Shown here one piece after another: positions 4,840 through 24,713 of a stretch of DNA of 36,752 bases; position 1 is the first letter of the stretch, and every line of letters begins with the position of its first letter. The DNA lies in the NCBI GenBank assembly GCA_001275005.1, contig JWZX01003043.1, positions 1 to 36,752 on the forward strand, given 5' to 3'. This DNA is from Chrysochromulina tobinii. Its lineage: Eukaryota; Haptophyta; Prymnesiales; Chrysochromulinaceae. Made by a program: the position numbers and the translations under genes. The notes beneath the pieces were generated by a model. It was given only the letters and a program-made list of their open reading frames with translations, had not been told where the DNA came from and made no database searches.

Positions 4840-6723
4840 TGCGCTCGTTCGCGTGCCCAGCGGTGCGGGCAATTCGACCTCAACGATGGCGAGCGAGTCG
4901 GGGAGCCTCTCGGCGCGAAAGAGGCGCTGTTCGCTCACGTACAGGTGATGAGTGCGCTGCTCGTCGCCGAGCTCGCACAGCTTGGCGATCTCGGCGTTGC
5001 GGTGCGGGTCGCTGATGGGCTCCCAGGTGCCCGGGGCGACCTCGGCCTCGTACTGCGGCTTGGCCTCAAAATAGACGAACCCACCCGCGCTCAGAAGCGA
5101 CTCGGCAAAGAAGCAGTCCATACGTGCGAGGGAGAAGCAGTCCAAGTCCCTGGGGCGTCCAGCTTGGCGCTGTAGCGCCGAGACGACTACGTCACGTGCC
5201 TCCGCGGGCAAAGGGTAGACGAAGGCATACTCCGAGGCGCGGTCGGGGATGCCAAGCTGCCGCTTGAGCTCCTGCGGGAGAGTCATGAAGTGCTTGCCCG
5301 ACACCGCGCCCGTCGCGACGTGTGTGGGCACGCCGGGGATGTCGAGCATGTAAGCCCCTCCCAGCATCGGCGCGTCCTCGACGAAACTCCGAGCGATCAC
5401 CTGTGGGGAAGTAGGGGCGCCGAGGTGAGCGTTTGCATGCAAGCCGACGAAGCTCCGAGCGATCACCTGGTCAAAGCTCACGCGCAGCCCGAGGCTTGAG
5501 AAGTTGACGGGACCGAATTCAAATGGGCCAAGCTCCTCGAGCGCTGTGGGGTTTAGGTCGAGGGCCGTGGCGGAGCCGAGCGCCGTGGTGGGCACACCGA
5601 GTGCGCGCTGTCGTGGCGACGCGGATTGCAGGGCGCCGCACGTCGGGCAGGCGAGGCACGTGGGCGGGTGCAGATGCGGGATGCTGTCGCTGCTGCTGCT
5701 GCTGCCGCCGCCGCCGCCCATCTCAGCGCCTGCATCCAGGCCGTGCATCACGCGTGACACGTGAGCGGTGGGTGCAGACACGGCACGGCGCAGCTGCGGC
5801 ATCGGTTCACGCGCCGTGTCAGGCATCGGGTGGCGCGACGCTGCCCCGGTGGAGGCGAACGGCCGCAGCCCGGGCGGCACCATGCCATTGGCGCTGAAGG
5901 CATCAAGAGCCGCAGAGGGGACGGCGATGGTGGAGGTGGATGCGCTCGGGATGGCGCTTGGGATCACTTGGGTTGCGGCAGCGGTACCGGTAGGCTCTTC
6001 CTCAACCTCACCTCCATGCCGACGCCGCTTCGCCAGCGGCACGTCCGAGTCCGCCTCCATGCCCGCCTCGGGTGAACCGGCGGCGGGCAGGCGCGCCGCC
6101 TCGGCCGCCGGTTGCAACTCTCGAGCTATAGTCAGCAGGTGGGCGGCCAGCGCGCGCTGGAGCACCAGGCCCCCTGGCAGTGCAGGCCGCACCACCTGCC
6201 GTGCAATCGCGCGATCGCGCCGCCGCCCGTGCGTGTCGAGCATCGGCCGTCCGTCGGGATGGATGGCCGTCTGCTTGTAGTTGACCAGGTCGATCTCACG
6301 ATCGCCGTGCATGCGCAAGCGCACCTTGGGCGCACCGCTCGCCAGGCTCCTTTCTAAGAGCTTGCACAGGTCCTCGCCGCTCTCGTCGTCAGCACGCTGC
6401 ATGGGACGCCAACCGATGGGCGGCGATTCGTGTTCGTCATTCCACCACACCCAGCGGAGAAGCTTGCTGGTGTTATCCGACTGGCGGCGGATTGGAACGA
6501 TCTCGCTCGCTCTCTGCTGCGACATTGTGCCCAGGTCTACAGCGCGCTGATCTGAGCCCACGCGCACCGAACTGTGCCCGCTGCGCCACGATGCCTCAAG
6601 TACCTTGCACTGCGCCGGCGGGAAGTGTTGCCAACCCCATGTCTGCACGCACCCCCACCAGTACCATTGGGGGTCGAGCTGCGCCGGCGGCGGCGCCGAA
6701 GGCAACTCGGATATAGACAACAT
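3403..6723 (-). CDS. Double-WWE domain protein with C-terminal trypsin-like serine protease domain
   Basis: The ATG at 6723 opens 1106 codons, or 1084 aa if the 66-nt intron at 5466-5401 is spliced. WWE domain 1 is at about residues 17-80 (WYWWG, GWQHFPP, VDLGTM, IVPIRR) and WWE domain 2 at about 88-180 (WVWWND, GWRPM, IDLVNY). WWE domains of known families bind ADP-ribose units in poly-ADP-ribose. Residues ~190-390 are low-complexity, and ~400-640 are an unrecognised globular region followed by a poly-Gly tract. Residues ~824-1090 have a chymotrypsin/trypsin-like fold with a visible triad in unspliced numbering: His860 in TCDHV, Asp955 in ADVADAAVL and Ser1043 in MPGHSGGPV. The oxyanion-type GHSGGP motif is intact, so activity is expected. 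There is no signal peptide, which fits a nuclear or cytosolic protein. The pairing of an ADP-ribose reader with a protease is inferred to give targeted cleavage. Confidence 0.85.
5401..5466 (-). other. 66-nt in-frame intron bounded by a 25-bp direct repeat
   Basis: On the minus strand the exon ends TTTGACCAG, followed by GTGATCGCTCGGAG; the intron ends CCCCACAG, followed by the same GTGATCGCTCGGAG. The repeat copies are at plus-strand 5445-5469 and 5379-5403 (25 nt, one mismatch), offset 66 nt. The intron has canonical GT-AG ends and a C/T-rich 3' end, but it is a multiple of three and has no stop, so the frame stays open either way. Unspliced, it would add 22 residues and duplicate QVIARSFV. 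It could instead be a translated tandem duplication; RNA is needed to decide. Confidence 0.65.
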
Positions 6724-7397
6724 AGGGCGAGCCGATGCGGACCGACACCACGCCCGCCGCGACGGCCGCGTCGACGTAAAGCAGCAGTCTCGCCTGAACA
6801 GCCGAGAGGAGAGAGGGGGGAGTGTGAATAGCTCGTTTTACTATTGTAACACTCGGAAGCCAACGGCCTTATCGGAACAGGACTGGGTCCCGAGGGTGTG
6901 AACCGTCAGGGTAGCTATGTCCGGGTCCCCCAAAAGTATACCGGGGTCTTCCCGGCCCGCCCGCTTCGCGCTTCAATAAACGGCGCCGCACTGCGGGTGC
7001 GGCTGTGAGTGAAAGTTGATCGTATTAGTGATGGTTTTTGGATCAGTTTTCGCCGCACCGCACAATCGAGCGCCCCCCCCCCGCCGCCGCGCGCACGGTA
7101 CGTTAGGGTTAGCTCGCCCCACCATTTACGGCGCGCACGCTTCTCTGGCCGCCCCCATCCGTGCCAGCGGCACCTCCCCCCCGGCCAGCCCCGCCGCTAC
7201 CTGTTATACTGTGCTGATCCCTTTCGCGCACACTTGTCGGTGTGACATGTTCTGATCTCAGGCCGAGTCCGCATCCACGACCACATGCACATGGACAAAT
7301 GCTACCGCTTCGCCTTCCCCACTCCCGGGCATGCCTCACAATCCAAAGCGCCGTCTCGGGCACGCATCACAATCCGAAGCGCCGTCTCGGGCATGCC
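6724..7397. other. Intergenic region, 674 bp, with a short telomere-like motif
   Basis: This is the 5' flank of the WWE-protease gene and the 3' flank of the coiled-coil gene. It has C-rich runs (around 7075-7090), a single TTAGGGTTAG at 7103-7112, and the start of a 31-bp tandem repeat at 7327. I see no supported coding region or RNA gene. Confidence 0.4.
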
Positions 7398-7479
7398 TCA
7401 CAATCCGAAGCGCCGTCCCGGGCACGCATCACAATCCGAAGCGCCGTCTCGGGCATGCATCACGATCAGAGCGGGGCTC
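7327..7479. repeat. 31-bp minisatellite, four full units plus a degenerate fifth
   Basis: Units begin GGGCAYGC at 7327, 7358, 7389, 7420 and 7451 and share the core CACAATCCRAAGCGCCGTCYC. Units alternate between CATGCCTC and CACGCATC forms, which suggests duplication of a dimer. Units three to five code, on the minus strand, for the last ~25 residues and the stop (7400-7398) of the coiled-coil protein. Confidence 0.9.
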
Positions 7480-9151
7480 TCATGCGACACGGCGGCCATC
7501 CGCGACGCCATGGGCGAGGCGGACGAGAGCGCGCACGTGGGCGGGGGCGAGCTCGGCGGCGATCTCATCGTCTCCAGATGTGATCTCGACGGCGATCTCA
7601 TCGTCTCCAGATGAGATTTGAGCGAGGCGAGGGAAGTGCTCAGCGCAGCGCTACTCGGGTCGATCGAGCCGCTCGACCCGAGCGTCGCTAGGTGGCGAGC
7701 GGCAAAGGCGGCAGCGCCCCGCGACGGCGGGTGCATCGGGATAGCCGCCACGCTGCGAGGAGCGAGCATACTCTGATCGGAGAGGGCTGCCCTTGGCGAT
7801 GCCGCGTACGTGTCGGAGAGGTCGCACCTGTGCAGCGGCGTGGGCGGGGCTGAGGGCAGAGCCGATGCCGCCACCGACGCCGCCGCCGCCGCCGCCGCTG
7901 CATCTGCCACCGCCGCAGCACTGCCCGTGCCCGCGCCGAATGCGCCTCTCGCACGCTCATAGAGCTGCTGGGCGCTCTCGTACCGTCCCAGCTCCGAGCT
8001 CGCAATCTTGACGCGCTCCCGGTCTGCGCCAACGAAATTGGCCGCGCTGTGAATCAGCGCGCGCTCGGCGTTACCAACCTGCCAGCGGAGGTCATCAGAG
8101 GTCATCAGAGGTCATCAGAGGCCATCAGAGGTCATCGGAGGTCACCAGAGGCCATCAGAGGCCATCAGAGGCCATCAGAGGCCACCAGAGGCCATCTGAG
8201 GTCGTCAGAGGCCATCAGAGGTCATCAGAGGCCATCAGAGGTCATCAGAGGCCATCAGGGGTCATCAGAATCTGCCAGCGGAGATCTGCCAACCTGCCAG
8301 CGAAGGGTCTCCTCACGGCTCACGCTGGTCGAGCTCCTCAGCCGCTCCTCGTGCAGCCGCAGGTCCAGTTGGCGGCGCTCGTTGAGCGCCAGCGCCAGTG
8401 CCTCCGAAGCTTGAGCACGCTCTTGCTCAAGCATGATTCGATTCTTAGCAAGGTCGTCGGCGCGCTGCGCCACCTGAGCGCAGCGCTGCTCGGCCGCCTC
8501 GCGACGGGTCTGCTCGTCAGCCGCCAGGGTGGTCTGGTGCGCCAGGCGCTCGGTGAGGAAGCGATTCTCGCTGATCGCGATTGCCAGCGCGTCCTCCGCA
8601 CGCCATGCCCGGCCGAGCGCCTCGTCGCGCTGAGCCTCGAGCAGCTGCCGCATGCTGGTCGCCTCCGCGTTCGCCTGGCGGAAAAAGTCCTCAACCTTTC
8701 GCCGCTCGGCCACCGCGGCGCTCAGGTCGTTGAAGAGGCGCAGCCGCTCCTGCTCGCTTTGTGCGGCCGCGCGCGACCATTGTGCCTGGTCCGAGGACTC
8801 TTTGATCAGATGATCGTGCTCCTCCTGCGAGAGCCGCGCTTGCCACGCACCCGCTGCAGCGAGAAGCTGCGAGGACGTCGCCTTGGATTCGGCCAGCTCC
8901 TCCTCGGCGCGCCTCCTACGCTCGTCACTTTCGTCGGCGCGCGCCTCCGCCTGCTGCTGCTTCTCGGCTGCGACCTGCAGCGCCTTCTTGAGCTCCACGA
9001 TCTCGTACTTTTGATTGTCGAGCTTCTCGATCAGGCTGACTCGTTCCTCGCGCAGCTGGGTCACCTGTGTGTGCAGCGGACGGTGCCGGTCCGGCGTGAG
9101 GGGGATGGTGGTGCACGCCATTGAAGCTTCAGAACTTTGTCGAACTTGCAT
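7398..9151 (-). CDS. Coiled-coil protein, two exons
   Basis: Exon 1 is 9151-8294 (286 codons) and exon 2 is 8078-7398 (226 codons plus stop), joined in phase 0 across a 215-nt repeat-filled intron, giving 512 aa. Residues ~25-300 are an almost continuous coiled coil rich in Glu/Gln/Arg/Ala (e.g. VTQLREERVSLIEKLDNQ, RRRRAEEELAESKA). After the splice the frame runs LRWQ-VGNAERALIHSAANF and then becomes low-complexity Ala/Ser/Pro. It contains a short tandem (SHLETMRSPSR/SHLETMRSPP). The final residues are encoded in the 31-bp minisatellite. The start could also be the second ATG at 9121. Only 20 bp separate ATG 9151 from the stop of the ankyrin gene upstream, so a joint transcript or a missed intron joining the two is possible. 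A structural or scaffolding role is inferred; no family recognised. Confidence 0.75.
7558..7623. repeat. 33-bp direct tandem duplication inside coiled-coil gene
   Basis: Two adjacent copies of a 33-bp unit starting GGCGATCTCATCGTCTCCAG encode the repeated peptide SHLETMRSP on the minus strand. The second copy has diverged at its end. Confidence 0.85.
8079..8293 (-). other. 215-nt intron made of a decamer minisatellite, bounded by a 14-bp direct repeat
   Basis: On the minus strand exon 1 ends CTTCGCTGGCAG, followed by GTTGGCAG; the intron ends CCGCTGGCAG, followed by GTTGGTAAC. The 14-nt direct repeat (CCAACCTGCCAGCG on plus) lies at 8289-8302 and 8074-8087, offset 215 nt. Both frames are in phase 0, so removing 8293-8079 leaves one repeat copy and an intact reading frame. 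Without splicing, the frame from exon 1 terminates at 8255. Confidence 0.8.
8091..8270. repeat. Decamer minisatellite, 18 units of G(T/C)CATCAGAG
   Basis: Eighteen consecutive 10-bp units fill 8091-8270, mostly GTCATCAGAG or GCCATCAGAG with single-base variants (GCCACCAGAG, GCCATCTGAG, GTCGTCAGAG). On the sense (minus) strand each unit reads CTCTGATGRC and so carries CTGAT, a match to the usual branch-point consensus. The array lies entirely within the intron 8293-8079. Confidence 0.95.
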
Positions 9152-9171
9152 GTAACAGACGCCGCTCTTAA

Positions 9172-11010
9172 TTAACTATCCTCGCCTTTTGCCGCCGTCT
9201 CCTCGCCCGCCTCCTCGCCCGCCCCCCGGAAGGCGTTCGATGCGCATTCATCGCCCAGCAAGAGCAGCTCGCGCACGAATTTCGAGGGCTGGTGCATTCT
9301 GCGGGCCACGTCGATGGGGCGCCGCCCGTCGTAGTCAGCAAGCCACAAGTCGGGAGGGTTCGCGTGTCGGAGCAGCCGCAGGCCCTCGACGTCGTCGTGC
9401 GCGGCCGCAAGGTGACCGGGCGTCGCGCCACGCGCATCGGCTGCCGCGGTGGACGCGCGAGCGCCGAGCAGGGTGCGTACGCACTCGAGGCGCCTCTCGT
9501 GCAGCTTGACGCACCGTGAGCATCGGCAGCCGTTGGTGCCCTCTCCCAGTCGATGGGCCGCCAGGTGCAGAGGCGTCCAACCGACCGCGTCCGCCTGCGA
9601 CGGCTTCGACTGCGAACCACCCAGGCTAAGCAGCGCAGCGAGTGCCGCCGGGTGAGAGTGGTTCGCGGCCACGTGGAGAGGCGTCCATCCAAAATGCGTG
9701 GGGCGCACCATGTCGACCCCGGCCTCGCGCAGTGCGCGCAGGCACGCCACCGAGCCCGAGCGCGCCGCGTAGTGCGCCGCGCTCCTGCCGGCATCGTCCA
9801 CCACGTCAATCGCTGCGCCCGCCTGCACCAGGAACTGGAGGGTCTTCAGTTGCGCACCCACTGCTGAGGCGTGCAAGGCCGTCGCGCCAAAAGCATCCGG
9901 TGCGTCGATCAGCGCACCAGCGGCGAGCAACGTCGCGGTCGCCTCGCGCGCGCCGGCATGAGCGGCGAGGATGATAGGTGGACATCCGCCACGCCTCTCA
10001 AGCGGGGCAGCCCCCGCGCCCTCGGTGGGCCGACGAGGCGCGTAACCACCGTTGGCATCTGCGCCCCTGCTTAGCAGCAATCGAAGTGGCGCGACGCGGT
10101 TGTGCTCGGCAGCAACGTCGAGCGCGCTCCAGCCGCCGGCATCGCGCGCGTCGACCTCGACGCCATGGTCGAGCAGCAGCTGCAGCGCACGCACGCGCCG
10201 GCATGCCGGATCGGCACACCGGCAGCACGTCGTCGCATAGTGCAACGCGCGACGGCCACGCGCGTCCGGACGCTCCACGTTGGCACCACCGCCAAGCAGC
10301 ACCTCAAGGGCCTCAGGCGCGTCGGCAGCGGCGGCGGCGTGGCATGCGGTGCGCTTCTTCTTGTCGATGCCCTCGACGCTTGCCCCATGCCGCAGCAGCA
10401 CCTCCGCCGCCTCCGCCGCGTTCGACCACGCTGCGAGATGCAAAGGCCTCACGCCTTTGCGGCCGCGCCTCTCAGGTTTGGCACCGGCCTCGAGCAGCAG
10501 CGTGCACACGTGCGGCAGGTTGAGTGTGCTCGCCGCGTGCAGTGCCGTCGTGCCCTTGGCGTCCGCCTTGTCGACCGAGGCACCCTCGCGCAGCAGTCGC
10601 TCGAGGCATGCAGTGCGCTGGTCACCTGCAAGGACGGAGAGGTGCAGAGGTATCACGTTGAGCTCTCCTGCAGGCCGCTCGTAGTCCGCGCCCGCACGCA
10701 ACAGGGCGTCGAGCCGGTCAATGTCTTGCTCGATCACGCTGCGGTGCACGCGCGTGAGCCCCAGCTCGTCCGCCTGGTTGAGCTCCTGGCGTAGCGTGTG
10801 CCCGAGCTGCTCCAGTTGCGACTTGAGCTCGGGCGGCATCGGAAGCTCACGATCAGCCACATTCTCGAGCAGCGCGGAGAGCGAGCGGAGGCGATTCACA
10901 ACAGGCGCGGCGTGGAGAACTGGGACCAGGACGAGCGGGAACAGGAGGAGCTGCAGCAACGCGCCTCGCATTGAAAAAAGAGATTTCACTTGTAGCAACG
11001 CGCCTCGCAT
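9172..11010 (-). CDS. Large ankyrin-repeat protein with N-terminal signal peptide
   Basis: This is a single open frame. An ATG at 11010 and a second at 10971 both start MRGALLQ because the region is a tandem duplication. From 10971 the start MRGALLQLLLFPLVLVPVLH is a textbook signal peptide followed by AAPVV. The rest is about 13 to 14 ankyrin repeats (recurring TALHAA, PLHLAA, LLLEAGA, GWTPLHVAA). Two repeats carry Cys-rich inserts (CCRCADPACRR and CRCSRC) that could bind metal or form disulfides. The tail after the last repeat is short and acidic (GEEAGEETAAKGEDS). The protein is inferred to enter the secretory pathway and mediate protein binding. The 5' extension to 11058 lacks an ATG. The next gene begins 20 bp after this stop. 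Confidence 0.85.
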   Translation of the reverse strand: MRGALLQVKSLFSMRGALLQLLLFPLVLVPVLHAAPVVNRLRSLSALLENVADRELPMPPELKSQLEQLGHTLRQELNQADELGLTRVHRSVIEQDIDRLDALLRAGADYERPAGELNVIPLHLSVLAGDQRTACLERLLREGASVDKADAKGTTALHAASTLNLPHVCTLLLEAGAKPERRGRKGVRPLHLAAWSNAAEAAEVLLRHGASVEGIDKKKRTACHAAAAADAPEALEVLLGGGANVERPDARGRRALHYATTCCRCADPACRRVRALQLLLDHGVEVDARDAGGWSALDVAAEHNRVAPLRLLLSRGADANGGYAPRRPTEGAGAAPLERRGGCPPIILAAHAGAREATATLLAAGALIDAPDAFGATALHASAVGAQLKTLQFLVQAGAAIDVVDDAGRSAAHYAARSGSVACLRALREAGVDMVRPTHFGWTPLHVAANHSHPAALAALLSLGGSQSKPSQADAVGWTPLHLAAHRLGEGTNGCRCSRCVKLHERRLECVRTLLGARASTAAADARGATPGHLAAAHDDVEGLRLLRHANPPDLWLADYDGRRPIDVARRMHQPSKFVRELLLLGDECASNAFRGAGEEAGEETAAKGEDS

Positions 11011-11029
11011 TGAAAAAAGAGATTTCACT
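10955..11029. repeat. 36-bp direct repeat (period 39) duplicating the ankyrin gene start region
   Basis: Copies at 10955-10990 and 10994-11029 are identical over 36 nt and separated by TGT. On the minus strand each contains a T-rich stretch and ATGCGAGGCGCGTTGCT, so the start codon context exists twice in frame. Confidence 0.95.
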
Positions 11030-11201
11030 GTGAACGTAAACACGGCAGGACGCGACAAGAGTTAGCCGTTGCGTAACCCGTTGGCTGTGAAGATGCAATG
11101 CGAAATTCCAAAGCTGCAATGGTGTGTGTTTGTCAATAACGTTTGATCTCGCGACATCGTCGCTTGCATCGCCACACGCTCAAAGCACGACAAGTACCCC
11201 A

Positions 11202-12353
11202 TCAATCCCTCCCATTCGCAGGCAAAGGCACGACCGCTGACTCTGCAGCAACGCTGCCTCCAACGACGGCGCCGCAACTACCCTCCGCGTTGCTCGTCTC
11301 CACCACTCTGCAGCTCGCGGCAGCACCGCCGCCACTTGTGCCAGCGGAGCCGCAACCTCCAGCGCCGCCGCGTACCTCGCCGCTGCCGACACACGCCCCT
11401 CCACCAGCAGCACCGCTAGCCGCCGACGCCTCAACCTTGCCCGCCGCCGCCGCCCTGGCGGCCGCTGCGTTGCGTGCGCGTATCGGAACAAACGGCTCCG
11501 TGAATACATCGAGGAGGCGGCGCACTTTGCGATCGCCCAGGCCTGGGCATGCAGTGAGCTCCTCCTCGGTGGCGCTCAGGATGCTCGCAAGCGATCCGAA
11601 GCGCGTGTGCAGAGTGGCCACGTCATTCTTATTGAGCGAGCGTACGGGGTGGAGCGCGTCGGCGAGCTGCGCAAGTAGCGAGCCGTCGTGACGCTCCTTG
11701 ATGAGATCGGCCGGCTTCTTGGCGAAGGCTCGGAAGGTCTCGAGGTAGCGCGCGGCTTCGACCACGCTGAAGGCAAGCACCGTCGTCGCGTCCTGCCGCA
11801 GCGCCTTTTGAGTGATCGCGAGGACCGGCTCGTCCGGGTCGTCGCAGTCAACGAGCACCAGCACGATCCGCAGCGTGTAGCCGAGCGTGAGCTCGAGTAG
11901 CCGGCGCGTAACATAGTTGGGGTGCAGCAGGTGGTAGCGTATTGAGAGGAAGAGCGCGCACGTTGTCTCTGAGAGCACGTAGTCTGCAGTTGTCTCGCCG
12001 TACTGCCATGGCACGTTGCGGATGGCGCGTAGCACCGGATTGCCCTGCTGTCGGCGGGAGACGAGGATCGCGGTTGGGTTGAACGGCGCGGGCGCCGCAG
12101 CAGCGGAAGAGCCTGCGGCGCGAGCTGCCGAGGAGATTGTGGACGAAGAGGTTGCTGTGCTGGGTCCTGTGGGCAACACCGATTGTGGCGGTGCTGCCGA
12201 GGGTAGCGGTGGCATGATGCCGCCTACGGCGACGGCGGGAGCTGGCGCTGGTGCAGTGAGTTGCGACGACGAAGGAACAAATAAGCTCGTGGCCGCGTTC
12301 TTCTTGCGCTCGCGAGCGGCCGCTACCTCCAAGGCAGTCGGCAGACGCGACAT
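11202..12353 (-). CDS. ERCC1: DNA excision repair protein ERCC1
   Basis: ERCC1 is the non-catalytic partner of the XPF nuclease, which makes the 5' incision in nucleotide excision repair and acts on crosslinks. The central nuclease-like domain is clear (ILVSRRQQGNPVLRAIRNVP, followed by WQYG, DYVLSETTCALFLSIRYHLL, HPNY, RYLETFRAFAKKPADLI). It is followed by the tandem helix-hairpin-helix domain that binds XPF (VRSLNKNDVATLHTRFGSLA, ATEEELTACPGLGDRKVRRL, LDVFTEPF). The N-terminus is a Ser/Ala/Pro-rich disordered arm as in other ERCC1 proteins, and the C-terminal ~90 residues are Gly/Ala-rich and disordered. I chose ATG 12353 (MSRLPTALEVAAARERKK). In-frame ATGs at 12407 and 12515 are possible, but the extra residues do not look like ERCC1 and the latter starts only 27 bp after the Mpv17 gene. 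No intron is needed. Confidence 0.93.
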   Translation of the reverse strand: MSRLPTALEVAAARERKKNAATSLFVPSSSQLTAPAPAPAVAVGGIMPPLPSAAPPQSVLPTGPSTATSSSTISSAARAAGSSAAAAPAPFNPTAILVSRRQQGNPVLRAIRNVPWQYGETTADYVLSETTCALFLSIRYHLLHPNYVTRRLLELTLGYTLRIVLVLVDCDDPDEPVLAITQKALRQDATTVLAFSVVEAARYLETFRAFAKKPADLIKERHDGSLLAQLADALHPVRSLNKNDVATLHTRFGSLASILSATEEELTACPGLGDRKVRRLLDVFTEPFVPIRARNAAAARAAAAGKVEASAASGAAGGGACVGSGEVRGGAGGCGSAGTSGGGAAASCRVVETSNAEGSCGAVVGGSVAAESAVVPLPANGRD

Positions 12354-12542
12354 AGGTTTCCTACCGGTATGAATTATCGCGTTGTGTGGGGCGCGAATAA
12401 CAAACATTGGCTGTGAATAGAAAGATAAGATTCCTCTCCCACAAAGGTGTTTCTCAAAACGGTGCCTCTCCCTAGGCGCGCCGGACTCGTTTTGTAAAAG
12501 TGACAGCTTTCTCATGTTGTGTGTCCCTTCAGACCTTGGTCG

Positions 12543-13049: not shown

Positions 13050-13291
13050 TTTGCTCGAAGAAGAGTTTTCCTGTGAACAGCCAAAGAATTCAAGTTACCC
13101 TCGACACCGGACCTCAGTGATACCGAGGCGTCTTTTCGCGATCCCTAGGATTCCGTCTTCAGTTTACGGGTTTGCTGAAACCCCCTCCACCTAAAAATAA
13201 AGTACAAGCGCGCGGCGAATCAAATGAGGTCTGTGAGCCCTAGGGAATGAGAGTGTGACCCTGCAACGTCTGCGAAGAAGGTTCCGAGTTC

Positions 13292-15232: not shown

Positions 15233-15644
15233 TTCTCTTCATTTCCGCCCCCGGTCAATTTATCCGCTTCGTCAACTCCGTACTTATGCGTGCTCGCGCG
15301 GGAAGTCACGAATCAAATTGGAGCCTACAACCTGCCATCGCGGGTGCCCAATATGTTCTGAGGCGACCACGGTATTAACGTTAATAACGTTATCCTCACC
15401 ATCATGCATCATCATCGTCTCGTTACGTTGTATTCGGGTATCACAACAAATCTCAACACGAGACAGTATCGGGCACAAGATCTCAGAGATGAGACCTCAC
15501 GTAGAAGAGCTCGCCATCGTCCGCCGCCGCGCATCAGCCGCCCGCGCGTCGCCCCCTCCAGGCTCCAGCACGCGACCCCAGCTGAGCAGGGGACGATCGT
15601 AGGGCACCAGGTCGAGGTGAACGACCGCGGACTCAAAGCTCGGA
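15233..15644. promoter_or_regulatory. Upstream region of the DCD gene with palindromic AT-rich sites
   Basis: This 412-bp gap between two minus-strand genes is AT-richer than the coding flanks. It holds two adjacent palindromes, TTAACGTTAA at 15375-15384 and TAACGTTA at 15385-15392, about 145 bp upstream of the DCD start. They are candidate regulator binding sites by symmetry only. No coding region is supported. Confidence 0.3.
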
Positions 15645-17024: not shown

Positions 17025-17162
17025 TTCGCGATGTCGAGACTGTGATGAGATGCACAAGTAAGTCGAGTGAATGTACATGTCAAGACGTAACTGGTGGGAC
17101 GCGGAGCACGAAAACTCAAGCTTCAGCGCGTTTTGCGAGATCGAGCGAACTCCTCTTGTGTG
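17025..17162. promoter_or_regulatory. 138-bp divergent spacer, probable bidirectional promoter
   Basis: The spacer separates the TFIIF alpha start (minus) from the Orange-like gene start (plus). Its size leaves room for only one shared promoter region. No clear TATA box is seen. Confidence 0.45.
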
Positions 17163-18007
17163 ATGGCGAGCCACCTTCTAATTGCTCTCCTCGCCCTCGC
17201 GGTCGTGCCGCGTGCTGGGGCATGGCAATTGGGCAGCGTGAGGTATGCAGGCCGTAGCAGAGCGATCCTCCGACAGCCGAGCGGCGCAGTCGTCATGCTC
17301 GAGGCCTTCGGTGCGCGAGCGCCCTCATGTGCGGAACGTGAAACCGTGCCCTCTTCCTTACACGCGTGTCTGCCGCCTCATTCGCTCGCTCGGCAGATCT
17401 CATGCCCGTGGTCGATTGCCTTAAGCTCGATGGCATGGATGCCGTGCAGCAGTGCATGGACAACATCAAGCCCTGGATGGAAATCACTGACGAAGGTGAG
17501 CTCAACTTCTCGCTGAACGCGGTGAACGGCTTCATCGGCGGCAGCGTGGGAGTGGTTGGGACGGTCGTGTCGACCATGCTCAAGAAGAAGGAAGTCAAGG
17601 ACCGCCTCAAATGCTCGTACTGCGAGGGATCGGGACAGATCCTCTGCGGCCACTGCCTTGGCTCGGGCACACTCTCCGTCATGGGCGCGGACGGCGTACT
17701 CACATCGATGCAGTGCCCAAACTGCGAGGGCACCGGCACGGTGGTGTGCATCAACTGCCAGGGCTCGGGCCTCTCGGTGCCCGACGAGTTCCTGCAGGTG
17801 CTGGGCGACGAGGAAGTGGGCTTCACCGAGCAGGATTACATTGGCCTCTTTGACGAAGCACCCTTCAACCCCAAGGCCGTAGGGGCCAAAGCAGGCGAGG
17901 TGGGCTCCGCCACTGCTACGGCCGCCCCGCCTGCCGCCGCGCCGACCGCCGCCGCGCGCTCAAATAGTGCCCCGAACAAGGAGGACTATACGGGTGGCCT
18001 AGGTTGA
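17163..18007 (+). CDS. Plastid Orange-like protein with DnaJ-type zinc finger, two exons
   Basis: Exon 1 is 17163-17310 and exon 2 is 17397-18007. The 86-nt GT-AG intron is phase 1 and joins LEAF to DLMPVVDC, giving 252 aa. Residues 1-20 (MASHLLIALLALAVVPRAGA) are a signal peptide followed directly by Trp and a basic, acid-poor stretch, as in the bipartite leaders of complex red plastids (aromatic at +1). After a helical region comes a hydrophobic span (GFIGGSVGVVGTVVSTML) and then four CxxCxGxG-type motifs (CSYCEGSG, CGHCLGSG, CPNCEGTG, CINCQGSG). The order GG-x-VGV, basic linker, Cys-rich domain matches Orange (OR) proteins, which stabilise phytoene synthase and promote carotenoid storage in plastids. 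BSD2-type chaperones share the zinc finger, so the exact orthologue is not certain. The C-terminal tail is Ala/Pro-rich. Confidence 0.85.
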
Positions 18008-18447
18008 GCTCGCGAGATCGTCCGAGATCGTGCGCTCACTCACCTTGCCCTGGGGCCGTGCTTCGAGAGAACGCCGAGTACTCCGCCGACGACTGTTGAA
18101 CGTGGGCCGAGGGACGTCACCTGGCGCCTGGCCCGGAGCAGCTTCCAGTTTCCACAGTACAGTGCCATCCACGGACCTGCGCGCCCTCGACGCAAGCTCA
18201 CTTCCGACGTCCGCGCGCCGCGCGCGCGGCGCGCCGCGTCGCGGATCGGAGGTTATATTTTGCGAAATCGGCGCCATGCACCTTCTTTAATACATGTTCC
18301 AACGTCACGCCCAGACCGAGCACGAAGCATCACGAGATGCCGACGGATTGCAACTTTTAAGAAGATAGTACACCAGAGAAAAAGATAAGATTAGTCGTTT
18401 ACTGTCCATGACGCTGGGCGGCGCGGCGCAAAAGGCAAATCAGAGAT
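18008..18447. other. 440-bp region between convergent genes, with a 22-bp perfect palindrome
   Basis: It separates the 3' ends of the Orange-like (+) and double-SAM (-) genes. At 18213-18234 there is a perfect palindrome of alternating GC dinucleotides (GCGCGCCGCGC and its complement), able to form a strong hairpin or Z-DNA and placed where both transcripts should end. No coding region is supported. Confidence 0.5.
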
Positions 18448-19143
18448 TCAGAGCTCCTGCTTCTGCAGTTCTTGAGTTCCTGAGCCACGCCAGCGCAAGT
18501 GGCGGATGAGTGCATCTAGGAGCTCAGCGGCGGCCTCATTCTGCTCCATCGTGTTTGACGTTCCACTTACGAGCGTCTCAAGATCACGCGGGCTCAGCCG
18601 CAGAAGCGTGGCACCGTCCACTTCCGCTGCTTCAAACGCGGGTGCGAACGCTTCTAAACCCGCGTCCTCGAGCCAAGCCGCCACGGCGCCCACGTCCCAC
18701 CCGCTAGGTGGCGGGTGCATCGCGTGGTGTGCCTTCAGCTCGCTCGTCGACATGAGCCCACGCCGCTCACGTAATTCGGCAATCTCCATTGCGATGAGCG
18801 CGATGTGTTCACTTGCCGATAGCATGAGCTCTGAGGACAGTTTATCAGCGTTTAAGGCTAGCAAGCGAGTGCCGTCAATCTTTGCCGACTCGAAGGCGTT
18901 GCGGTACTCGTGAAAGCCAATGCTCTCCACCCATGCCTGCACATCCACAACCTCCCATTGGCGAGGGTCTGCACGCACATGCGGCAGTGAGACGAGAAGC
19001 GATGAACATTCGGTTCGAAGTGGCCCTTGGCAGTCGGAGAGCGCACCAGAGACGGGCTCGAGGCTTCGTGGTGGGTAGGTGTCGTACGTCGGCACGCCAC
19101 GCTGCAACGCGCCGGCAATCGCGACGGCGACGAGCGCGAACAT
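18448..19143 (-). CDS. Double SAM-domain protein with N-terminal hydrophobic leader
   Basis: The frame is 231 aa. Residues 1-15 (MFALVAVAIAGALQR) are hydrophobic and may be a signal peptide or anchor. SAM domain 1 is at ~62-128 (WEVVDVQAWVESIGFHEYRN, FESAKIDGTRLLAL, LSASEHIALIAMEIAEL). SAM domain 2 is at ~148-217 (WDVGAVAAWLEDAGLEAFAP, FEAAEVDGATLLRLSPRDLE). Both keep the hallmark tryptophan, the DG-x-x-LL turn and the C-terminal helix. SAM domains self-associate or bind other SAM domains, and tandem copies suggest polymer or scaffold formation. A secreted or luminal location would be unusual for SAM proteins and depends on the weak leader. The partner is unknown. Confidence 0.82.
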   Translation of the reverse strand: MFALVAVAIAGALQRGVPTYDTYPPRSLEPVSGALSDCQGPLRTECSSLLVSLPHVRADPRQWEVVDVQAWVESIGFHEYRNAFESAKIDGTRLLALNADKLSSELMLSASEHIALIAMEIAELRERRGLMSTSELKAHHAMHPPPSGWDVGAVAAWLEDAGLEAFAPAFEAAEVDGATLLRLSPRDLETLVSGTSNTMEQNEAAAELLDALIRHLRWRGSGTQELQKQEL

Positions 19144-19312
19144 GATTTCGCGTTGGCGAGGTCGTCGAGCTCGTCGAATGTGCCTCGCGGCGTTTCGGTC
19201 TCAACACTTTGGGATCATCGCGGCGTCGTATCGTGCATCGGAGCCGCCGAGCCCCGCGTAACAATTCGGAAACCAAAGTATGCACATATCCTGCGAGGCC
19301 ATCTAGACTCAT
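19144..19312. promoter_or_regulatory. 169-bp divergent spacer, probable bidirectional promoter
   Basis: It lies between the double-SAM (minus) and PX-START (plus) start codons. No specific element is recognised. Confidence 0.4.
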
Positions 19313-20965
19313 ATGCCGACCCCTCGAAATCGGGGTATGAGGATTGATGCGCTGCGCTACTCAAACCTAGAAAGCGCCATAGGGCCAGACGGCACGAGCG
19401 TCTACTCCTTCGCCTTCGACCTCAAGGCGACCAACGGTGCCATGTATCGGCTGACAGCCCGCTACTCCGACTTTCGGCGGCTCACATACAAGGAGCTGCT
19501 GGCAGCGTACCCGGACGCGTACGATTGGATGCCACGATTCCCGCCAAAGAACCCGCTCGCCAAGCAGACGCCGGCGTTCCTGCTTGCGCGCGGCCGCGGG
19601 CTCGAGACCTACCTCGGCGCATTGCTTGGCGACCCGAGGCTGAGTGAGTCAGAGCCCATCCGAGCGCTGCTCGCGATGGCGAGAGTCGTCGAGGAGGCCA
19701 GCGGCGACGCGGACGGTGAAGGGTCGCTGATTCCCACGAGCACGCCGTCCGCCCACGCGGTCACCGCCACGACGGCCATGCAGCGTGCGACCTTTAGTGC
19801 GCTCGAGACTGTTGGTTCGACTTCTGGGCTGGAAGCGTGGCAGGCGCGAGCGGTGGTGGCGTCGGCAGAGGTGGCGGCTGCTAGCTCATGGGCGGCCTGG
19901 TCGCTCGCGGTCGTCTTCGAGCCCGCCACCTCGCTCGGCATCGCCCTCATGTTCGGCGTTGTGTACGAGCAAGCAGTGCTTTATGTCTGCTGTTGCTTGC
20001 TCGGCATGACAGCTGGCCACGTGTGCAAACGGCTGTGGCTTGCCCCGCCCAAGAACGGCAAGGTGCATGCGCCAATGGGCAAGTCGATCTCGTACGCACA
20101 GCCGCGCTTCCCACCCGCCGCGGCCGCAACCTCGGCGGCGGCGCCAGCGGCGTTCGCAACAGCGCCGCAAGAGATGCAGCCCGCCGCCGCCGTGGCGGCG
20201 GCGAGCGAGGCAGCGGGCAGGTCGATCGACGCTGCCGAGGCCACCGCAAATGGTTCGGTCGACGCGGCCGCCAAGGCCACCGAGGTGCAGTTGCGAGCGG
20301 CTTCCGAGGCACTGGAGGCCAACAGAGTGTTCGAGGCATCGATGCCCCATAAAGAGTCTGACGGATGGAGATTCTTTGCGACCAAAGAGGACGTAGATGT
20401 GTACCTCAACGTGCGCCCGAATGGGACGGGCACCTGGGGCATGGGCATCGGGCGCATACCCGCCACTGTCGCGACGGTGCAGGAGGTGCACGATATGGAG
20501 CGGTTCAAAGGAGTCCTCGACAAGCAGTGGGAATCGACGAAACTTCTCGGTGAGGTGCCCCCTTCACTGATCTCGATCGCGGGCTGGGAGGTCAACTCGT
20601 GCACCATCCAGCAGAGCCTGTACCGCAGCCCCGCGTGGCCCGTCGCGCCGCGCGAGAGCTGCACCGTCATGGTGAAGATGCGTTGCCTTGCCGACGGCGG
20701 GGTGAGGCTGCTGCACCGTAGCTTCGACTTCCCAGGCTGCACTCCGCCGGAAGGGTACGTGCGCGTGTCACTGGACGTGGGTGGCTACTCGCTGACGCCC
20801 ATCAGGCCTCACCATCTAGATGGCCTCACCGAGATGCTCTACCTCAACATCCTCGACCCGAACGGCTCCATTCCAAGCGTGGTCGTCAAGAAAACGGTGC
20901 CCGAGAGGGCGCTCAGCGTCGCACGCGTGCGCAAGTGCTGCGCCGAGCTCGCGAAGAGCCGGTGA
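19313..20965 (+). CDS. PX domain - membrane segment - START domain protein
   Basis: The frame is 550 aa from ATG 19313 (alternative ATG 19337, MRIDALRYSN). Residues ~9-125 are a PX domain: the phosphoinositide-binding RYSDF motif is at ~50-54, followed by a Pro-rich loop (MPRFPPKNPLAK) and the final helices (LETYLGALLGDPRL). Residues ~190-241 contain hydrophobic segments (WSLAVVFEPATSLGIALMFG, AVLYVCCCLLGMTAG), probably two membrane passes or a hairpin. An Ala-rich linker follows. Residues ~344-545 are a START lipid-binding domain (SDGWRFFATKEDVDVYLNVR, WEVNSCTIQQSLYRSPAWPV, RSFDFPGCTPPEGYVRVSLD). The design fits a membrane-anchored lipid carrier recruited to PI3P or related lipids at organelle contact sites; this is inferred from the domains. 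No intron is apparent. Confidence 0.85.
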   Translation: MPTPRNRGMRIDALRYSNLESAIGPDGTSVYSFAFDLKATNGAMYRLTARYSDFRRLTYKELLAAYPDAYDWMPRFPPKNPLAKQTPAFLLARGRGLETYLGALLGDPRLSESEPIRALLAMARVVEEASGDADGEGSLIPTSTPSAHAVTATTAMQRATFSALETVGSTSGLEAWQARAVVASAEVAAASSWAAWSLAVVFEPATSLGIALMFGVVYEQAVLYVCCCLLGMTAGHVCKRLWLAPPKNGKVHAPMGKSISYAQPRFPPAAAATSAAAPAAFATAPQEMQPAAAVAAASEAAGRSIDAAEATANGSVDAAAKATEVQLRAASEALEANRVFEASMPHKESDGWRFFATKEDVDVYLNVRPNGTGTWGMGIGRIPATVATVQEVHDMERFKGVLDKQWESTKLLGEVPPSLISIAGWEVNSCTIQQSLYRSPAWPVAPRESCTVMVKMRCLADGGVRLLHRSFDFPGCTPPEGYVRVSLDVGGYSLTPIRPHHLDGLTEMLYLNILDPNGSIPSVVVKKTVPERALSVARVRKCCAELAKSR

Positions 20966-21431
20966 GGCTGACGGGGGCGGGGCTGCCCCGCAGCACGATC
21001 TTTTCTTCCTGCAGCTCCTCGTCGCAGTTGGGCCGCAGAACGAGGAGCGAGCGTCTCGAGCCGCTTGCTCTCTGTTCACTGCTGCTTCAGCCTTCACCGC
21101 ACGGCCGCATCGCCAGTAACTACATTTAGATGTATTGAATAATGCCGCATCTCCAGGTACGACGACGACGTCCCCGGCCGAAAAGTTCACTTCATCTTCA
21201 ATTCACAATTGTGTCGAGTATTTAACGAAATGTTGATTGTTGAACAGATGATCCGTCACCGAGCGTGCGTGCCGGTCAGCGGGGATCGGGATGAGAACAC
21301 ACAGATCGAACTCAGGGCTGACTTGACAGCTCATACCACGACCTCACTACTTTACAGCGCGTGTTGCGTGAGTTAGGCCGCAAAGGAAATTCGGGGATCG
21401 TTTCGAGAGCTTCCAAAAGAAGAGGCGTTGA
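20966..21431. other. Intergenic region, 466 bp
   Basis: This is the 3' flank of the PX-START gene and the 5' flank of the PDZ gene, both on plus. The second half (21110-21250) is AT-richer and probably includes the PDZ promoter. Minus-strand frames here are shadows. No RNA gene or repeat was recognised. Confidence 0.4.
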
Positions 21432-22655
21432 ATGCCAAAAGCGGCACCCAAAAGCGATCGGCAAGCGCTCGCGGCCCGATCGTCGGCAGGAAACGAAATC
21501 GCGGGGCCTGGGCACATGGCACCGTCCTCGATCTGGGACATCACCGTGTTCAAACACACGAGGGACGACCGCCTGGGTATCAGTCTCGAGACTGGCGATA
21601 AAGAGAATGTCGTCGTGGTCAAGGCGCTTGCCCCTGGCGGCCGCGCAGAGATTTGTGGCATCCTCGCTGGTGACGAGGTGCTGTCCATTGGCGGAACGCC
21701 ATACGCGTCCGCTCTAGAAGCGGCCCGTGCGCTGCGCGAGAGCGATGGTTCGGTCAACGTGCGCGTCGAGCGGCGCAGTGGCTTGTCCTTGTCTGCGTGC
21801 AACCTGAGCAACCGCAGCGGCCCTACCTACTCGGAGACTAACTCAGACGAAGTGGGCGACTCCGACGAATACTCCGACGAGCACTCGGACGAGGACATCG
21901 TGGGCCAGTGGGAGGAGTATCTCGACTGGATGATCGTCCGTATCATGGAGCGCGAGGACGAGCTACGCGAGTGCCAGGAAGAGACAGCAGATGCGCTGGT
22001 GCAGTCGATGCTCGCGATTCGCGAGCCGGAACCGCCGTCAGATGCGGACATGGAGGACCCCGAGGCCATGCAGCTGTACATGGAAGCGATGGCCGTGTAT
22101 GCTCAACAGCAGAGGAACCGGCTGACCGAGCTCGATGGCGCCCAAGAAGCAATAGACGAGAACCGCGATGCCTCCGCAGCGTTGTTGCTGTGCACCACTC
22201 GACGGCAAGAACTCGAGGTGCTGCTTGGGCGCGTGCACACGCTGACAGAGCAAGACGCGGAGCGCATCGAGGAAATCTGGCAGGAGCTGAGCGGGGGGCT
22301 CGAGGACGAGGAGGCAGACGTGCAGGAGCAAGGGGAGGAGCAGGGCGATGACGCTGACGAATCCCTCATACTCGAGGCGACGAAGCTAGCGTTGGGTTCG
22401 AGATCATGCCCGAGATCACACGCCCAGTTGCACGTGCCCGAGCCGAGCAGCGCGCTCGAGCGGCTGCGCGAGCACAGCAAGCACGTGCGCCTCAACCAGC
22501 GTCTTCAGCGGGCGCGCTCCGGCAAAATGGGCGCCAAGCCGAGCGCCGTCACGCTGGCAAGCGACGATGAGGTGGGTTGCCAGATCCACCCCGAGGCAGA
22601 GAAGAAGAAGCTGCAGCGAAGCTATTCGTTTGGGCGCCGCACGAAGGCCAGTTGA
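21432..22655 (+). CDS. PDZ-domain protein with acidic and coiled-coil C-terminal half
   Basis: The frame is 407 aa from ATG 21432. A PDZ domain occupies ~residues 34-118: the carboxylate-binding loop appears as RLGIS (a GLGF-type loop), followed by VVVVKALAPGGRAEICGILA, GDEVLSIGGTPYASALEAAR and VNVRVERR. It is followed by a very acidic Asp/Glu/Ser tract (YSETNSDEVGDSDEYSDEHS), which is casein-kinase-like, then a helical coiled-coil region (~155-300), and a basic tail with RSYSFGRRTKAS. PDZ domains bind C-terminal peptides, so this is probably a scaffold. The specific partner is unknown. No leader or membrane segment. Confidence 0.82.
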   Translation: MPKAAPKSDRQALAARSSAGNEIAGPGHMAPSSIWDITVFKHTRDDRLGISLETGDKENVVVVKALAPGGRAEICGILAGDEVLSIGGTPYASALEAARALRESDGSVNVRVERRSGLSLSACNLSNRSGPTYSETNSDEVGDSDEYSDEHSDEDIVGQWEEYLDWMIVRIMEREDELRECQEETADALVQSMLAIREPEPPSDADMEDPEAMQLYMEAMAVYAQQQRNRLTELDGAQEAIDENRDASAALLLCTTRRQELEVLLGRVHTLTEQDAERIEEIWQELSGGLEDEEADVQEQGEEQGDDADESLILEATKLALGSRSCPRSHAQLHVPEPSSALERLREHSKHVRLNQRLQRARSGKMGAKPSAVTLASDDEVGCQIHPEAEKKKLQRSYSFGRRTKAS

Positions 22656-23231
22656 GCGTTGAGCGTGAGCTGACCCGAAGCGGCCGTCGTTGGATGCGTC
22701 GAGTTCATCAGTGGTCATCAGTTGACTCATCAGTGGTCATCAGCGAACGTTTAGATGCATCGAGTTCACGCTCAGTCAGCAAGAGAGGCGTGGTCCGGAT
22801 CCGCAATCGCATCCAAATTCGCAAGATTGTGCCGAATGTGAGACACGACGCGCTGCTGCATGTGTACGACTAATGAGCAGTGGTGACGATCAGTCGGTGG
22901 ACGTGTGGGTGAGGCTCGGCTGAGGCGAGGGGAGTCGGCGGGCGGCGGGGCCGGCGCTGTGCGCGGTGAGCCGTGAGACGGCGACGATGGTAGCTGGAGG
23001 TGGAGCCAGTATAGAAACGAGAGCGCGACTGGAGGCCGCGGCGCCGGTGTGGCTGTGGCTTGTCAGTGGCCGGGGGAGCAAATGACCGATGGAGCCAAGA
23101 CGAGAGGGAGAGCGGTCGACCGTCGCGGTATCGTAAAGGCGACGCGAGTCGGGTATTTGGCGTATGAAAGTCGACCCGAGTCGGTAAAACGCAACACACG
23201 TATCGGCATATAAAGAGTTTCGGGTTTAAGG
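22656..23231. other. Intergenic region, 576 bp, between convergent genes
   Basis: It lies between the PDZ gene (+) and the VPS9 gene (-), both ending here. It holds the repeat-flanked insert at 22693-22768. Purine-rich sequence follows from 22900 to 23110. ORFs in this region have Arg/Pro/Ser-rich compositions and are not supported as genes. Confidence 0.45.
22693..22768. repeat. Direct repeat flanking a GGTCATCAG-rich insert downstream of the PDZ gene
   Basis: GATGCGTCGAGTTCA (22693-22707) and GATGCATCGAGTTCA (22754-22768) are 15-nt copies with one mismatch, offset 61 nt. The 46-nt insert between them contains GTGGTCATCAG twice plus a related ACTCATCAG, the same core as the decamer arrays in the introns at 8091-8270 and 23609-23657. 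Confidence 0.8.
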
Positions 23232-24713
23232 CTACGAAAGCGTCGCTGCGGCGGCGCCGCAAGACCGGCCAGCGGCAGCGCCGGCGCCCTCTCCCATGGC
23301 CTCCGGCCGGAGCAGTGAGTCACTGGTCCAGTTGAGGTCCTGTGCGACGCGGCACGCGCATTGGAGCGACACGAGCGCGTACCCCTCCTTGCCATGCTGC
23401 TGGCCGGCCGGAAGGAAGTCGCAAATGAAGGCGAGCTCAGCCGGCAGAGACGTGACGCGGCTCCGCGTGACCACATACACGAGCAGTGGCAGCAGGTCGT
23501 CGGCACCCATGGCGGCGCCCTTGGATGCCTTGCCCGTGCCCGCGGCGCGCAGGCTCAGTGCACGCGTCGCGCATTTGATCACTTCCTCGCACGCCTCAAG
23601 AAGCACCTGCATGCAATGAGGAAGGCAATCAGATGGCAATCAGAGGCCATCAGGAGTGCACGCCTCAAGAAGCACCTTTGCTTTCTCTTCTGGCGTCCGG
23701 TAAAAGGTCAGCGTGCGCAGCAGCTGAACTGCGATGGCGTATGGCAGGCGCGGGTCGCTCGGGCCGCAGTCACGCAGTGCCACGGCACTCGGGTCGCCGG
23801 GCTCCACCAGCCACAGCGGCGGCGGCAGCTGAAGGTCGCACGGGAGCAACGAACGCATATGATGGCTCGACTGTGCGAGCGCGCTGATCTCGGTCGCCTG
23901 GGCCGCTGCATAGAGGGGGCTGAGCACCGCATAAATGGAGCGGTGGAGCTGGCCGGCGAGCTGGCGCCGTCCCTCGCCCACCGCGCGCGGGTCCTCGCGC
24001 AAGCTCAGCGGTAGGTGCTCGTCGAGAAGCCCCTCGAGCGCCGTCAGTACCTCGTGAACTCGAGTCACCACTTGCTGAAGAGGTGGCGGTGCGCCCTCCG
24101 CTGGCGCGTGGTCGGCTCGAGAGCGCCACCACAGTCGCTGTGGGAGCTGCTGCAAGAGCTGCAGGGATGGAAGCGGCAGCGGCCACAAAGATGACGACGG
24201 CGCGGCCGGCACAGCCGACGGCGCTGAGGCGCGCTCAGCCGGCGCGGCAGCCACCTGGCCGTACATGTCTCGGAAGTCGTCAACAAACTCGCAGAGCGCC
24301 GAGCCGACGGGCAGCGCGGCATCACTCACTAGAGCGCTGAGCTCATGCCGCAGTGCCTCGGTGGGCCTTTGGGCCCCGGTTGCGGCGTCTGCGGTCAACT
24401 CGGCCTGGCTGCTGCTGCTGCTGCTGCCTCCGCCCTCAAGCACCTCAACCATGGCAGTGGGAGGCTGCGGCGTGGCAGCGTCTGCCATGTGGCTGGTGGG
24501 CTTTGCGATTTCGAGAGACCATGGGCGCAGGCTCACATCGGACCGCAGCAGCGCCATCAGCGCTTCGCTCTCCCGGAGCACGACATCTTCTTGTGATCCA
24601 GCAAGCCAAGCGATGAACCGCTGTTGCTGCTCAATCTTCAGAGCCGAGTGTGCCAGTCTCATGGTCCGATTGGACAGCTCCGACGCTGCCGCAGCGACGA
24701 AGTGGCCATCCAT
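23232..24713 (-). CDS. VPS9-domain protein (probable Rab5-type GTPase exchange factor), two exons
   Basis: Exon 1 is 24713-23676 (346 codons) and exon 2 is 23606-23232 (124 codons plus stop), joined in phase 0 across a 69-nt intron; total 470 aa. The VPS9 domain spans the junction (~residues 315-435): LPYAIAVQLLRTLTFYRTPE, EKAKVLLEACEEVIKCATRA, GADDLLPLLVYVVTRSRVTS, LPAELAFICDF and GKEGYALVSLQCACRVAQDL. The invariant Asp and Pro of ADDLLP and the Tyr of EGYALVSL, needed for exchange activity in the family, are present. Exchange factors of this family activate Rab5/Rab21-type GTPases in early endocytosis. The N-terminal ~300 residues are helical with Ser and Ala/Pro low-complexity stretches and have no recognised domain. 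Without splicing, exon 1 would stop after VLLEACTPDGL, losing most of the domain. Confidence 0.88.
23607..23675 (-). other. 69-nt intron bounded by a perfect 20-bp direct repeat
   Basis: On the minus strand exon 1 ends GAGAAAGCAAAG, followed by GTGCTTCTTGAGGCGTGC; the intron ends CATTGCATGCAG, followed by the same GTGCTTCTTGAGGCGTGC. The repeat (AGGTGCTTCTTGAGGCGTGC) lies at 23658-23677 and 23589-23608, offset 69 nt. The 49-nt insert between the copies contains three decamer-like units (GGCAATCAGA, GGCAATCAGA, GGCCATCAGG). Both frames are phase 0 and splicing restores the VPS9 domain. Confidence 0.9.

Follow-up and report, generated by a model that had tools for sequence, protein, structure and literature searches.

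Three introns in a 36,752-nt stretch of the Chrysochromulina tobinii genome (contig JWZX01003043.1; hereafter the window) raise the question of how an intron comes to be bordered by long direct repeats that run across both of its splice sites. An earlier note on this DNA had assigned all three to one design, with repeats surrounding a shared decamer filler. The border repeats are indeed present in all three, but the decamer (TCTGATGRCC on the sense strand) is confined to introns 2 and 3, and is degenerate in the latter. All three introns lie on the reverse strand. Intron 1 (5401..5466, 66 bp) leaves the frame open when unspliced and consists of a 22-bp target copy (5445..5466), the source of its GT 5' splice site, followed by an element (5401..5444, TTGCATGCAAACGCTCACCTCGGCG...CCCCACAG) that lacks the decamer, resembles by eye a second repeat family (family B, below) and contains a CTCAC which we take to fit the branch-point consensus. 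Its second target copy (5379..5400) forms the start of the downstream exon, and the in-register direct repeat over both splice borders measures 25 bp with one mismatch. Intron 2 (8079..8293, 215 bp) is of family A type, with an atypical 3' end and a decamer array expanded to 18 units (8090..8269). The in-register test gave it a border repeat of 18 bp with one mismatch and an exact core of 14 bp (CGCTGGCAGGTTGG), copy 1 (8289..8302) reading CGCTGGCAG/GTTGG and copy 2 lying at 8074..8087; this repeat extends at least nine bases to the left of the GT. Intron 3 (23607..23675, 69 bp), a family A type intron whose 3' end is a variant, interrupts a VPS9-domain gene with its ATG at 24713 and has an exact border repeat of 20 bp; its target copies (23658..23675, and 23589..23606 coding for VLLEAC) are 18 bp long when counted from the GT and 20 bp with the shared AG included. 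One and the same repeat test gave scores of 22, 15 and 20 for introns 1, 2 and 3, against 2, 4 and 4 for the introns at 17311-17396, 25351-25247 and 32889-32805, which the earlier note had rightly named as controls free of such repeats. The decamer itself matched the window 25 times at one mismatch or fewer, with 4.1 matches expected.

Comparison with related proteins indicates that these are new introns placed inside exons that are continuous in relatives, less strongly so for intron 2. A relative 91% identical in protein sequence (P0014) is without exactly the 22 amino acids that correspond to the 66-bp insert of intron 1, and intron 3 is likewise absent, at the protein level, from six more distant relatives (P0004-P0009; P0010-P0012 were left out of this comparison, and P0003 diverges ahead of the junction). 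For intron 2, the distant relative P0017 is continuous across the junction, with only about eight residues aligning upstream. Protein continuity in VPS9 and CHD4 suggests that the elements are removed by splicing: the VPS9 match (80 bits) was obtained for the spliced open reading frame only, the unspliced one matching no family, and a CHD segment joined across three introns aligns to CHD4 over its full 181 aa. In the genes tested, removal of the element restores the conserved reading frame.

The three introns belong to a system of introners that spans this 53-Mb algal genome and comprises two families, with many similar introns at unrelated sites. Family A is rich in the decamer and ends in TTGCCTCCCTCATCAG, for which there are 526 forward and 548 reverse exact matches (1,074 in all); the core of family B, GCATGCAAGTGCTCACCACGGCG, was found 460 and 457 times (917, variants included). 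CTCCCTCATCAGGT had 570 forward and 638 reverse exact matches, and the reversed control of each of these three patterns gave 0. The doubled decamer occurred 1,336 and 1,391 times against 0 and 1 for its reversed pattern, a genome-wide count that did not refute the earlier note. Its proposals of a recurrent process and of a small mobile donor are supported, with two such families of about 1,000 exact matches each. The element core, of about 40-60 bp, contributes a motif that resembles the branch-point consensus (CTGAT in family A and CTCAC in family B), a polypyrimidine tract and the AG. Both families have a constant 3' end (CAG), while the 5' ends of family A vary and show microhomology; by eye, the 5' end of family B (GCATGC) is fairly constant. 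In viral contigs, family A had no match and P0014 no relative; family B matched once, where a contig of 4.5 kb ends.

Where the repeats were readable (43 unique events, both families), the element lies between two target copies of 12-44 bp (median 25), the lower limit of 12 bp reflecting the score cut. Window introns 2 and 3 do not match the end patterns of these events and are not part of the set. The second target copy starts directly after the terminal CAG of the element, that is, at the 3' splice junction, and the 5' splice site comes from the first copy, as GT in most cases and as GC in some, although these dinucleotide counts come mostly from loci picked for GT. The two copies are identical in 24 of the 43 events, and base -1 is G in 38. 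In the sampled loci such repeats are far more frequent than in controls, and the refuting condition set by the earlier note, splice-site repeats no different from random, was not borne out there: 46 of 101 family A ends scored at least 12 compared with none of 976 swapped controls, and 58 scored at least 8 (43 fell below) compared with 22 of the 976. In random loci together with the window, 11 of 15 ends reached 12, tandem copies counted in. For family B, gapped alignment separated 9 of 13 ends, at sites picked for a following GT or GC, from 0 of 96 controls. Gapped alignment was too noisy to be used for family A (59/101 against 62/770 at a score of at least 12), its contrast being weakened because decamers align with one another.

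Ends picked for having no GT also carry repeats (9/21 at a score of at least 12 against 0/194 swaps), seven of the nine directly at the element end, and this weakens the idea that the machinery needs GT. Five of the nine remain once four special cases are set aside, namely L079, whose match lies inside its own array, L080 and L082, both stacked behind another element end, and L088, a whole-unit repeat that begins with GC; L076 was dropped since its score-8 match sits in a coding repeat. An argument against free placement (P = 0.003) was abandoned as well, because GT-less insertions exist and because insertions with AGGT in the repeat would likewise be purged if splicing took the first AG downstream of the branch point. 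When exact repeats of at least 12 bp were sorted by the dinucleotides at their left border, in 16 spaced 10-kb loci plus the window, AG/GT accounted for 9 of 116 pairs, no clear excess (mean 4.5 over 256 classes, several of them higher), and a looser repeat scan was inflated by a coding minisatellite in L019; neither serves as evidence here.

Direct repeats flanking introns would also be expected if a stretch of exon that includes AG/GT were duplicated in tandem in the genome, one of the routes put forward in the earlier note. Whole units of target copy plus element are in fact duplicated in tandem at L016, L020, L051 and L054, and the repeat of intron 2 reaches to the left of the GT. However, the interior of these introns is a shared element and not exon sequence, and the repeat extends no more than four bases to the left of the GT in any of the 35 non-stacked events; window intron 2, which is not among them, is an exception. 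Tandem duplication is contradicted as the primary route, for which we regard it as highly improbable; we retain it as a means of secondary expansion, and perhaps as the source of the odd ends seen in intron 2. The other route then envisaged, staggered-break repair with random filler, fails to explain a filler that is common to hundreds of introns and has a constant 3' end.

A non-autonomous, MITE-like DNA transposon moved by a transposase with loose cut spacing also seems improbable here. DNA transposition is thought to be the route of most described introner families, whose earlier characterised members have duplications of 3-9 bp according to the available excerpt of Gozashti et al. 2022 (PMC9860276). 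The duplications of 12-44 bp seen here are neither short nor fixed, and over 43 events their variable length argues, as had been proposed, against a transposase with a fixed duplication. A CTGATG/CATCAG inverted match can be seen by eye in family A, which is also an effect of the decamer; no terminal inverted repeat was seen by eye in the family B consensus. The same architecture is found in two unrelated families with different ends, which speaks against one transposase recognising element ends and suggests machinery that works on introns themselves and not on transposon ends.

At the 5' junctions of 26 of the 27 non-stacked family A events, microhomology averaged 1.13 against 0.51 (sd 0.10) for shuffled tails, and none of 5,000 shuffles reached 1.13; the measure includes a chance part, ambiguous bases being assigned to the target, for which the shuffles correct only roughly. 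The fillers between target and element are partly long or tandem (at least 8 bases in 11 of 35). Because the duplications vary, one end is fixed and the 5' junction is microhomologous, target-primed, RNA-templated insertion with microhomology closure is suggested. We favour, as the probable explanation, that these introners are small mobile introns, of two sequence families, which enter exons by an RNA-templated mobility resembling target-primed reverse transcription (TPRT) or the partial reverse splicing known from group II introns. The 3' end of the intron RNA would be used at a genomic nick and the opposite strand cut at a variable distance; copying would begin at the RNA 3' end, fixing the 3' boundary in either family, fill-in would duplicate the target, and the far end of the copy would be closed by microhomology joining, leaving a variable 5' end. 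Splicing selection may then retain chiefly insertions before GT.

Group II intron retrotransposition and LINE TPRT are characterised by variable target duplication, a precise 3' end, a variable 5' end and 5'-junction microhomology. These features recur in the elements described here, the variable 5' end and its microhomology in family A; the elements differ in being spliceosomal introns with no ribozyme, encoded reverse transcriptase or tail seen. The variable-length duplication typical of TPRT is present; a 3' tail, either poly(A) or a simple repeat, is missing, the repeat following directly after the CAG. The near-constant 5' end of family B counts against random 5' truncation, and usual SINEs are longer than these element cores. 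No partner retroelement was recognised among 26 reverse-transcriptase matches, of which four loci of 2.7-3.5 kb were read, two of them with an RNase H of LTR type; the search also gave ten integrase matches and one LINE-type endonuclease match. At L069, one A-type end motif lies at or inside a reverse-transcriptase match.

The RNA-templated step is inferred, and DNA template switching is a serious rival. In this view a single event of template switching or staggered-break repair, through MMBIR or end joining by polymerase theta, would yield both duplication and filler: the broken end would copy part of an existing intron by microhomology and return to the target 12-44 bp upstream, with no dedicated mobility machinery. 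We consider this possible but rather unlikely. It would accommodate the 5'-junction microhomology and the variable duplication length, and the G at -1 could represent return microhomology with a donor CAG/GT, although the 5' splice-site consensus fits too. By eye, some fillers look locally templated (L057, L018), and in Daphnia introns with short direct repeats have been described as gained when breaks are repaired (PMC3443670, in the part available). Against it, the CAG 3' boundary is constant across two families that are unrelated and have about 1,000 exact matches apiece, and holds also at several ends without a following GT; ordinary repair would often run into donor exons, though selection would purge many such cases.

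As far as the available portions of the relevant papers go, the closest known systems resemble these introns in some respects and differ in others. The introners of Gozashti et al. (PMC9860276) are similar in being many near-identical introns inserted into exons of unrelated genes, but their examples have 4-8 bp duplications, often with inverted repeats, unlike the variable 12-44 bp found here in two families; in an example from a Chrysochromulina sp. (TARA MAG) the duplications are 4 bp long and it is the element that brings the 5' splice site, opposite to the present arrangement. Repeated introns with direct repeats across the splice borders are also known in Amoebophrya (PMC7789003), with direct repeats of 3-5 nt, inverted repeats of 8-20 nt and largely non-canonical splice sites in the excerpt, whereas here the repeats are long and the introns mostly GT-AG or GC-AG. 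In Daphnia (reviewed in PMC3443670, as excerpted), the direct repeats, called short, were ascribed to staggered-break repair and one insert matched mitochondrial rRNA, in contrast to the long repeats here, whose insert is of one of two recurring kinds. At the borders of introns or close to them, Rogers and Bendich 2025 (PMC11782384, in part) reported direct repeats of 4-30 bp (mean 11.4 bp, 213 introns of many kinds, manual inspection); the present border repeats are linked to two mobile families and were tested against swapped controls.

The origin of new spliceosomal introns is a long-standing question, and intron birth is open to study in this genome. Many of the insertions look young, given the identical target copies in over half of the 43 events and the lack of the intron 1 insert in P0014, and their junctions, with duplications that are both long and variable, a fixed 3' end and 5' microhomology, show more detail than the available text of the introner papers describes. 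Such detail allows models based on RNA templates, DNA transposons or repair to be tested directly, in a culturable alga. Tentatively, we raise the broader idea that spliceosomal introns here might transpose as introns regardless of their sequence, the excised 3' end being joined to or copied at a nick much as group II introns do in partial reverse splicing, a staggered cut duplicating the target and the copy supplying the new 5' splice site. If this were true, a good 3' module might suffice to make any intron a donor, and families A and B would be just two winners.

Three minus-strand introns of the window, intron 1 (5401-5466), intron 2 (8079-8293) and intron 3 (23607-23675), carry direct repeats over their splice borders, the best in-register repeats measuring 25, 18 and 20 bp and scoring 22, 15 and 20, respectively. 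The introns that an earlier note had singled out as repeat-free controls indeed scored just 2, 4 and 4 in the same test. The same note had proposed a decamer filler common to all three introns, which holds for introns 2 and 3 but not for intron 1, where there is none; by eye, intron 1 resembles a diverged member of a second introner family (family B), and its unspliced sequence leaves the reading frame open. Decamer-like repeats (TCATCAGTGGTCATCAG, twice) also lie outside these introns at 22705-22744, just 3' of a plus-strand frame ending at 22655, while 31-bp tandem repeats (7323-7477) and a 39-bp tandem duplication (10952-11029) apparently bear no relation to introners.

The genome searched comprises 53.15 Mb in 2,253 contigs, of which the window is one, and its GC content was 63.65% in a 196,752-bp sample made up of the window and 16 spaced 10-kb loci; the published Chrysochromulina tobin genome description gives 59 Mb, 3,472 contigs, 63.4% GC and a mean of one intron per gene (PMC4580454). 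The decamer-rich family A has the consensus end cTGATtGCCTCCCTCATCAG, and its form TTGCCTCCCTCATCAG matched exactly 1,074 times genome-wide, while the family B pattern GCATGCANGTGCTCAYNACGGCG matched 917 times, tandem copies included in both counts; reversed control patterns of either family gave 0 matches genome-wide. The 196,752-bp sample held 15 family A ends (CYYYCATCAG) and three family B cores.

The exon start was sought again 40-450 bp upstream at 101 family A ends, with exon starts swapped between sites as control; 66 of these ends lie in loci picked around CTCCCTCATCAGGT, 15 in the spaced loci and window, and 20 in decamer-rich loci. The splice-site repeats suggested by the earlier note were borne out: scores of at least 12 occurred at 46 of the 101 ends, some of them non-independent because they sit in tandem whole-intron copies, versus 0 of 976 swaps, and scores of at least 8 at 58 versus 22; the spaced loci and window alone gave 11 of 15 at the higher threshold. 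Taking out tandem copies left 43 events, 35 with family A ends and eight with polypyrimidine-CAG ends (six B-like by eye); 35 of the 43 were not stacked behind another element end. The two target copies were identical in 24 events, base -1 was G in 38, and the target began with GT in 38, GC in three, TA in one and GG in one, the choice of loci leaning to GT. In loci not picked for GT, it followed 28 of 35 family A ends, and repeats of at least 10 were present at 19 of these 28 and at two of the other seven. For family B, where the sites taken were those with GT or GC next to the element, gapped alignment recovered repeats at 9 of 13 (0/96 controls), the best aligned stretch beginning 9-12 bases inside the exon in three of the nine. 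A long coding minisatellite of the GAGGTCATCAAGGAGGT type (locus L019, 5795-9530) confounds scans for splice-site repeats. Introners are a known kind of element; previously characterised families have duplications of 3-9 bp (PMC9860276), whereas those of families A and B span 12-44 bp (median 25 over the 43 events, the score cut setting the lower limit). Among the matches listed in searches of an open-licence library, we found no report of long, variable-duplication introners in a haptophyte.

Whole intron units of 54-93 bp, each a target copy plus element, also occur head to tail at six loci (L016, 4088-4258, minus strand; L020, 1314-1700; L041, L051, L054 and L059). Every unit is bounded by GT...AG or GC...AG, and unequal exchange between target copies probably produced these back-to-back introns. 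IMG/VR contig 3300027760_000958 terminates (L073, 4230-4554) in a family B element together with a minisatellite of the GACGAACCCT type; by eye, the frames to which these are joined have a prokaryotic or phage-like appearance, and the contig is possibly chimeric.

Comparison with homologous proteins, themselves predictions from contigs and compared at protein level, indicates that introns 1-3 are gains and probably spliced, with a weaker case for intron 2. Once spliced over intron 3, the frame matches the Pfam VPS9 domain at residues 328-436 (80 bits, E 1.9e-22), the junction falling after residue 346, inside the match, and the Pfam search of the unspliced frame gave no match. Twelve homologues were listed and nine read, scored among the 7,999 candidates with most shared words: P0001 (100% identical, 75% covered) continues into the same intron, the C-terminal residues of P0002 (91%) resemble a variant of it, P0003 departs upstream of the junction, and P0004-P0009 (41-62%) lack it, being uninterrupted with one VLLEAC-type motif each. 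The intron 1 insert is present in P0013 (98%), and P0014 (91%) lacks exactly its 22 residues and has a single QVIARSFV copy. P0015 (98%) continues into intron 2; P0017 (41%) lacks it, its alignment upstream of the junction covering only about eight residues, hence the weaker case. At L010, a chromatin-remodeller segment freed of three introns (borders set by eye) aligns over all 181 residues to CHD4; these are one family A intron, one GC-AG family B introner (9127-9212) whose duplicated target begins with GC, and one decamer intron with a different end.

At the 5' junction, microhomology between the last target bases and the bases preceding the element's first bases elsewhere averaged 1.13 in 26 of the 27 family A events that were not stacked. 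Shuffled tails gave 0.51 (sd 0.10), and none of 5,000 shuffles reached the observed mean, although part of it is chance, ambiguous bases being assigned to the target and the shuffles correcting only roughly for this. Variable duplication, a fixed 3' end, a microhomology-closed 5' end and no dependence on family fit a process in which copying would be primed at a nick from the 3' end of an intron RNA and microhomology joining would then close the 5' end. Partial reverse splicing of group II introns leads to the same junction geometry. A search for a partner retroelement returned 26 reverse transcriptase matches, and no partner was recognised in the four loci read, two of which carry RNase H of LTR type; there were one LINE-type endonuclease match and ten integrase matches. 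As no such partner was found, DNA template switching remains a serious rival to RNA-primed copying.

Twenty loci picked from exact family A ends without a following GT contain 21 such ends, eight followed by GC. Repeats of at least 12 occurred at nine of them versus 0 of 194 swaps, starting at the element end in seven and two and three bases beyond it in the others. Four were set aside (L079, matching its own array; L080 and L082, stacked; L088, a GC-start whole-unit repeat). The five independent insertions left (L081, L083, L090, L091 and L092) show that precision of the element end does not depend on a following GT, and that GT is not strictly needed. By eye, the elements at L083 and L091 immediately follow what looks like a pre-existing 3' splice site; they would give the old intron there a new acceptor, seemingly replacing the former one with no new intron made. 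The excess of GT after element ends reflects, at least in part, selection for splicing. Yet GT directly follows 726 of the 1,074 exact family A ends. Free placement would hardly give such a share where much of the genome is non-coding, and the elements therefore likely prefer transcribed exons or G|GT.
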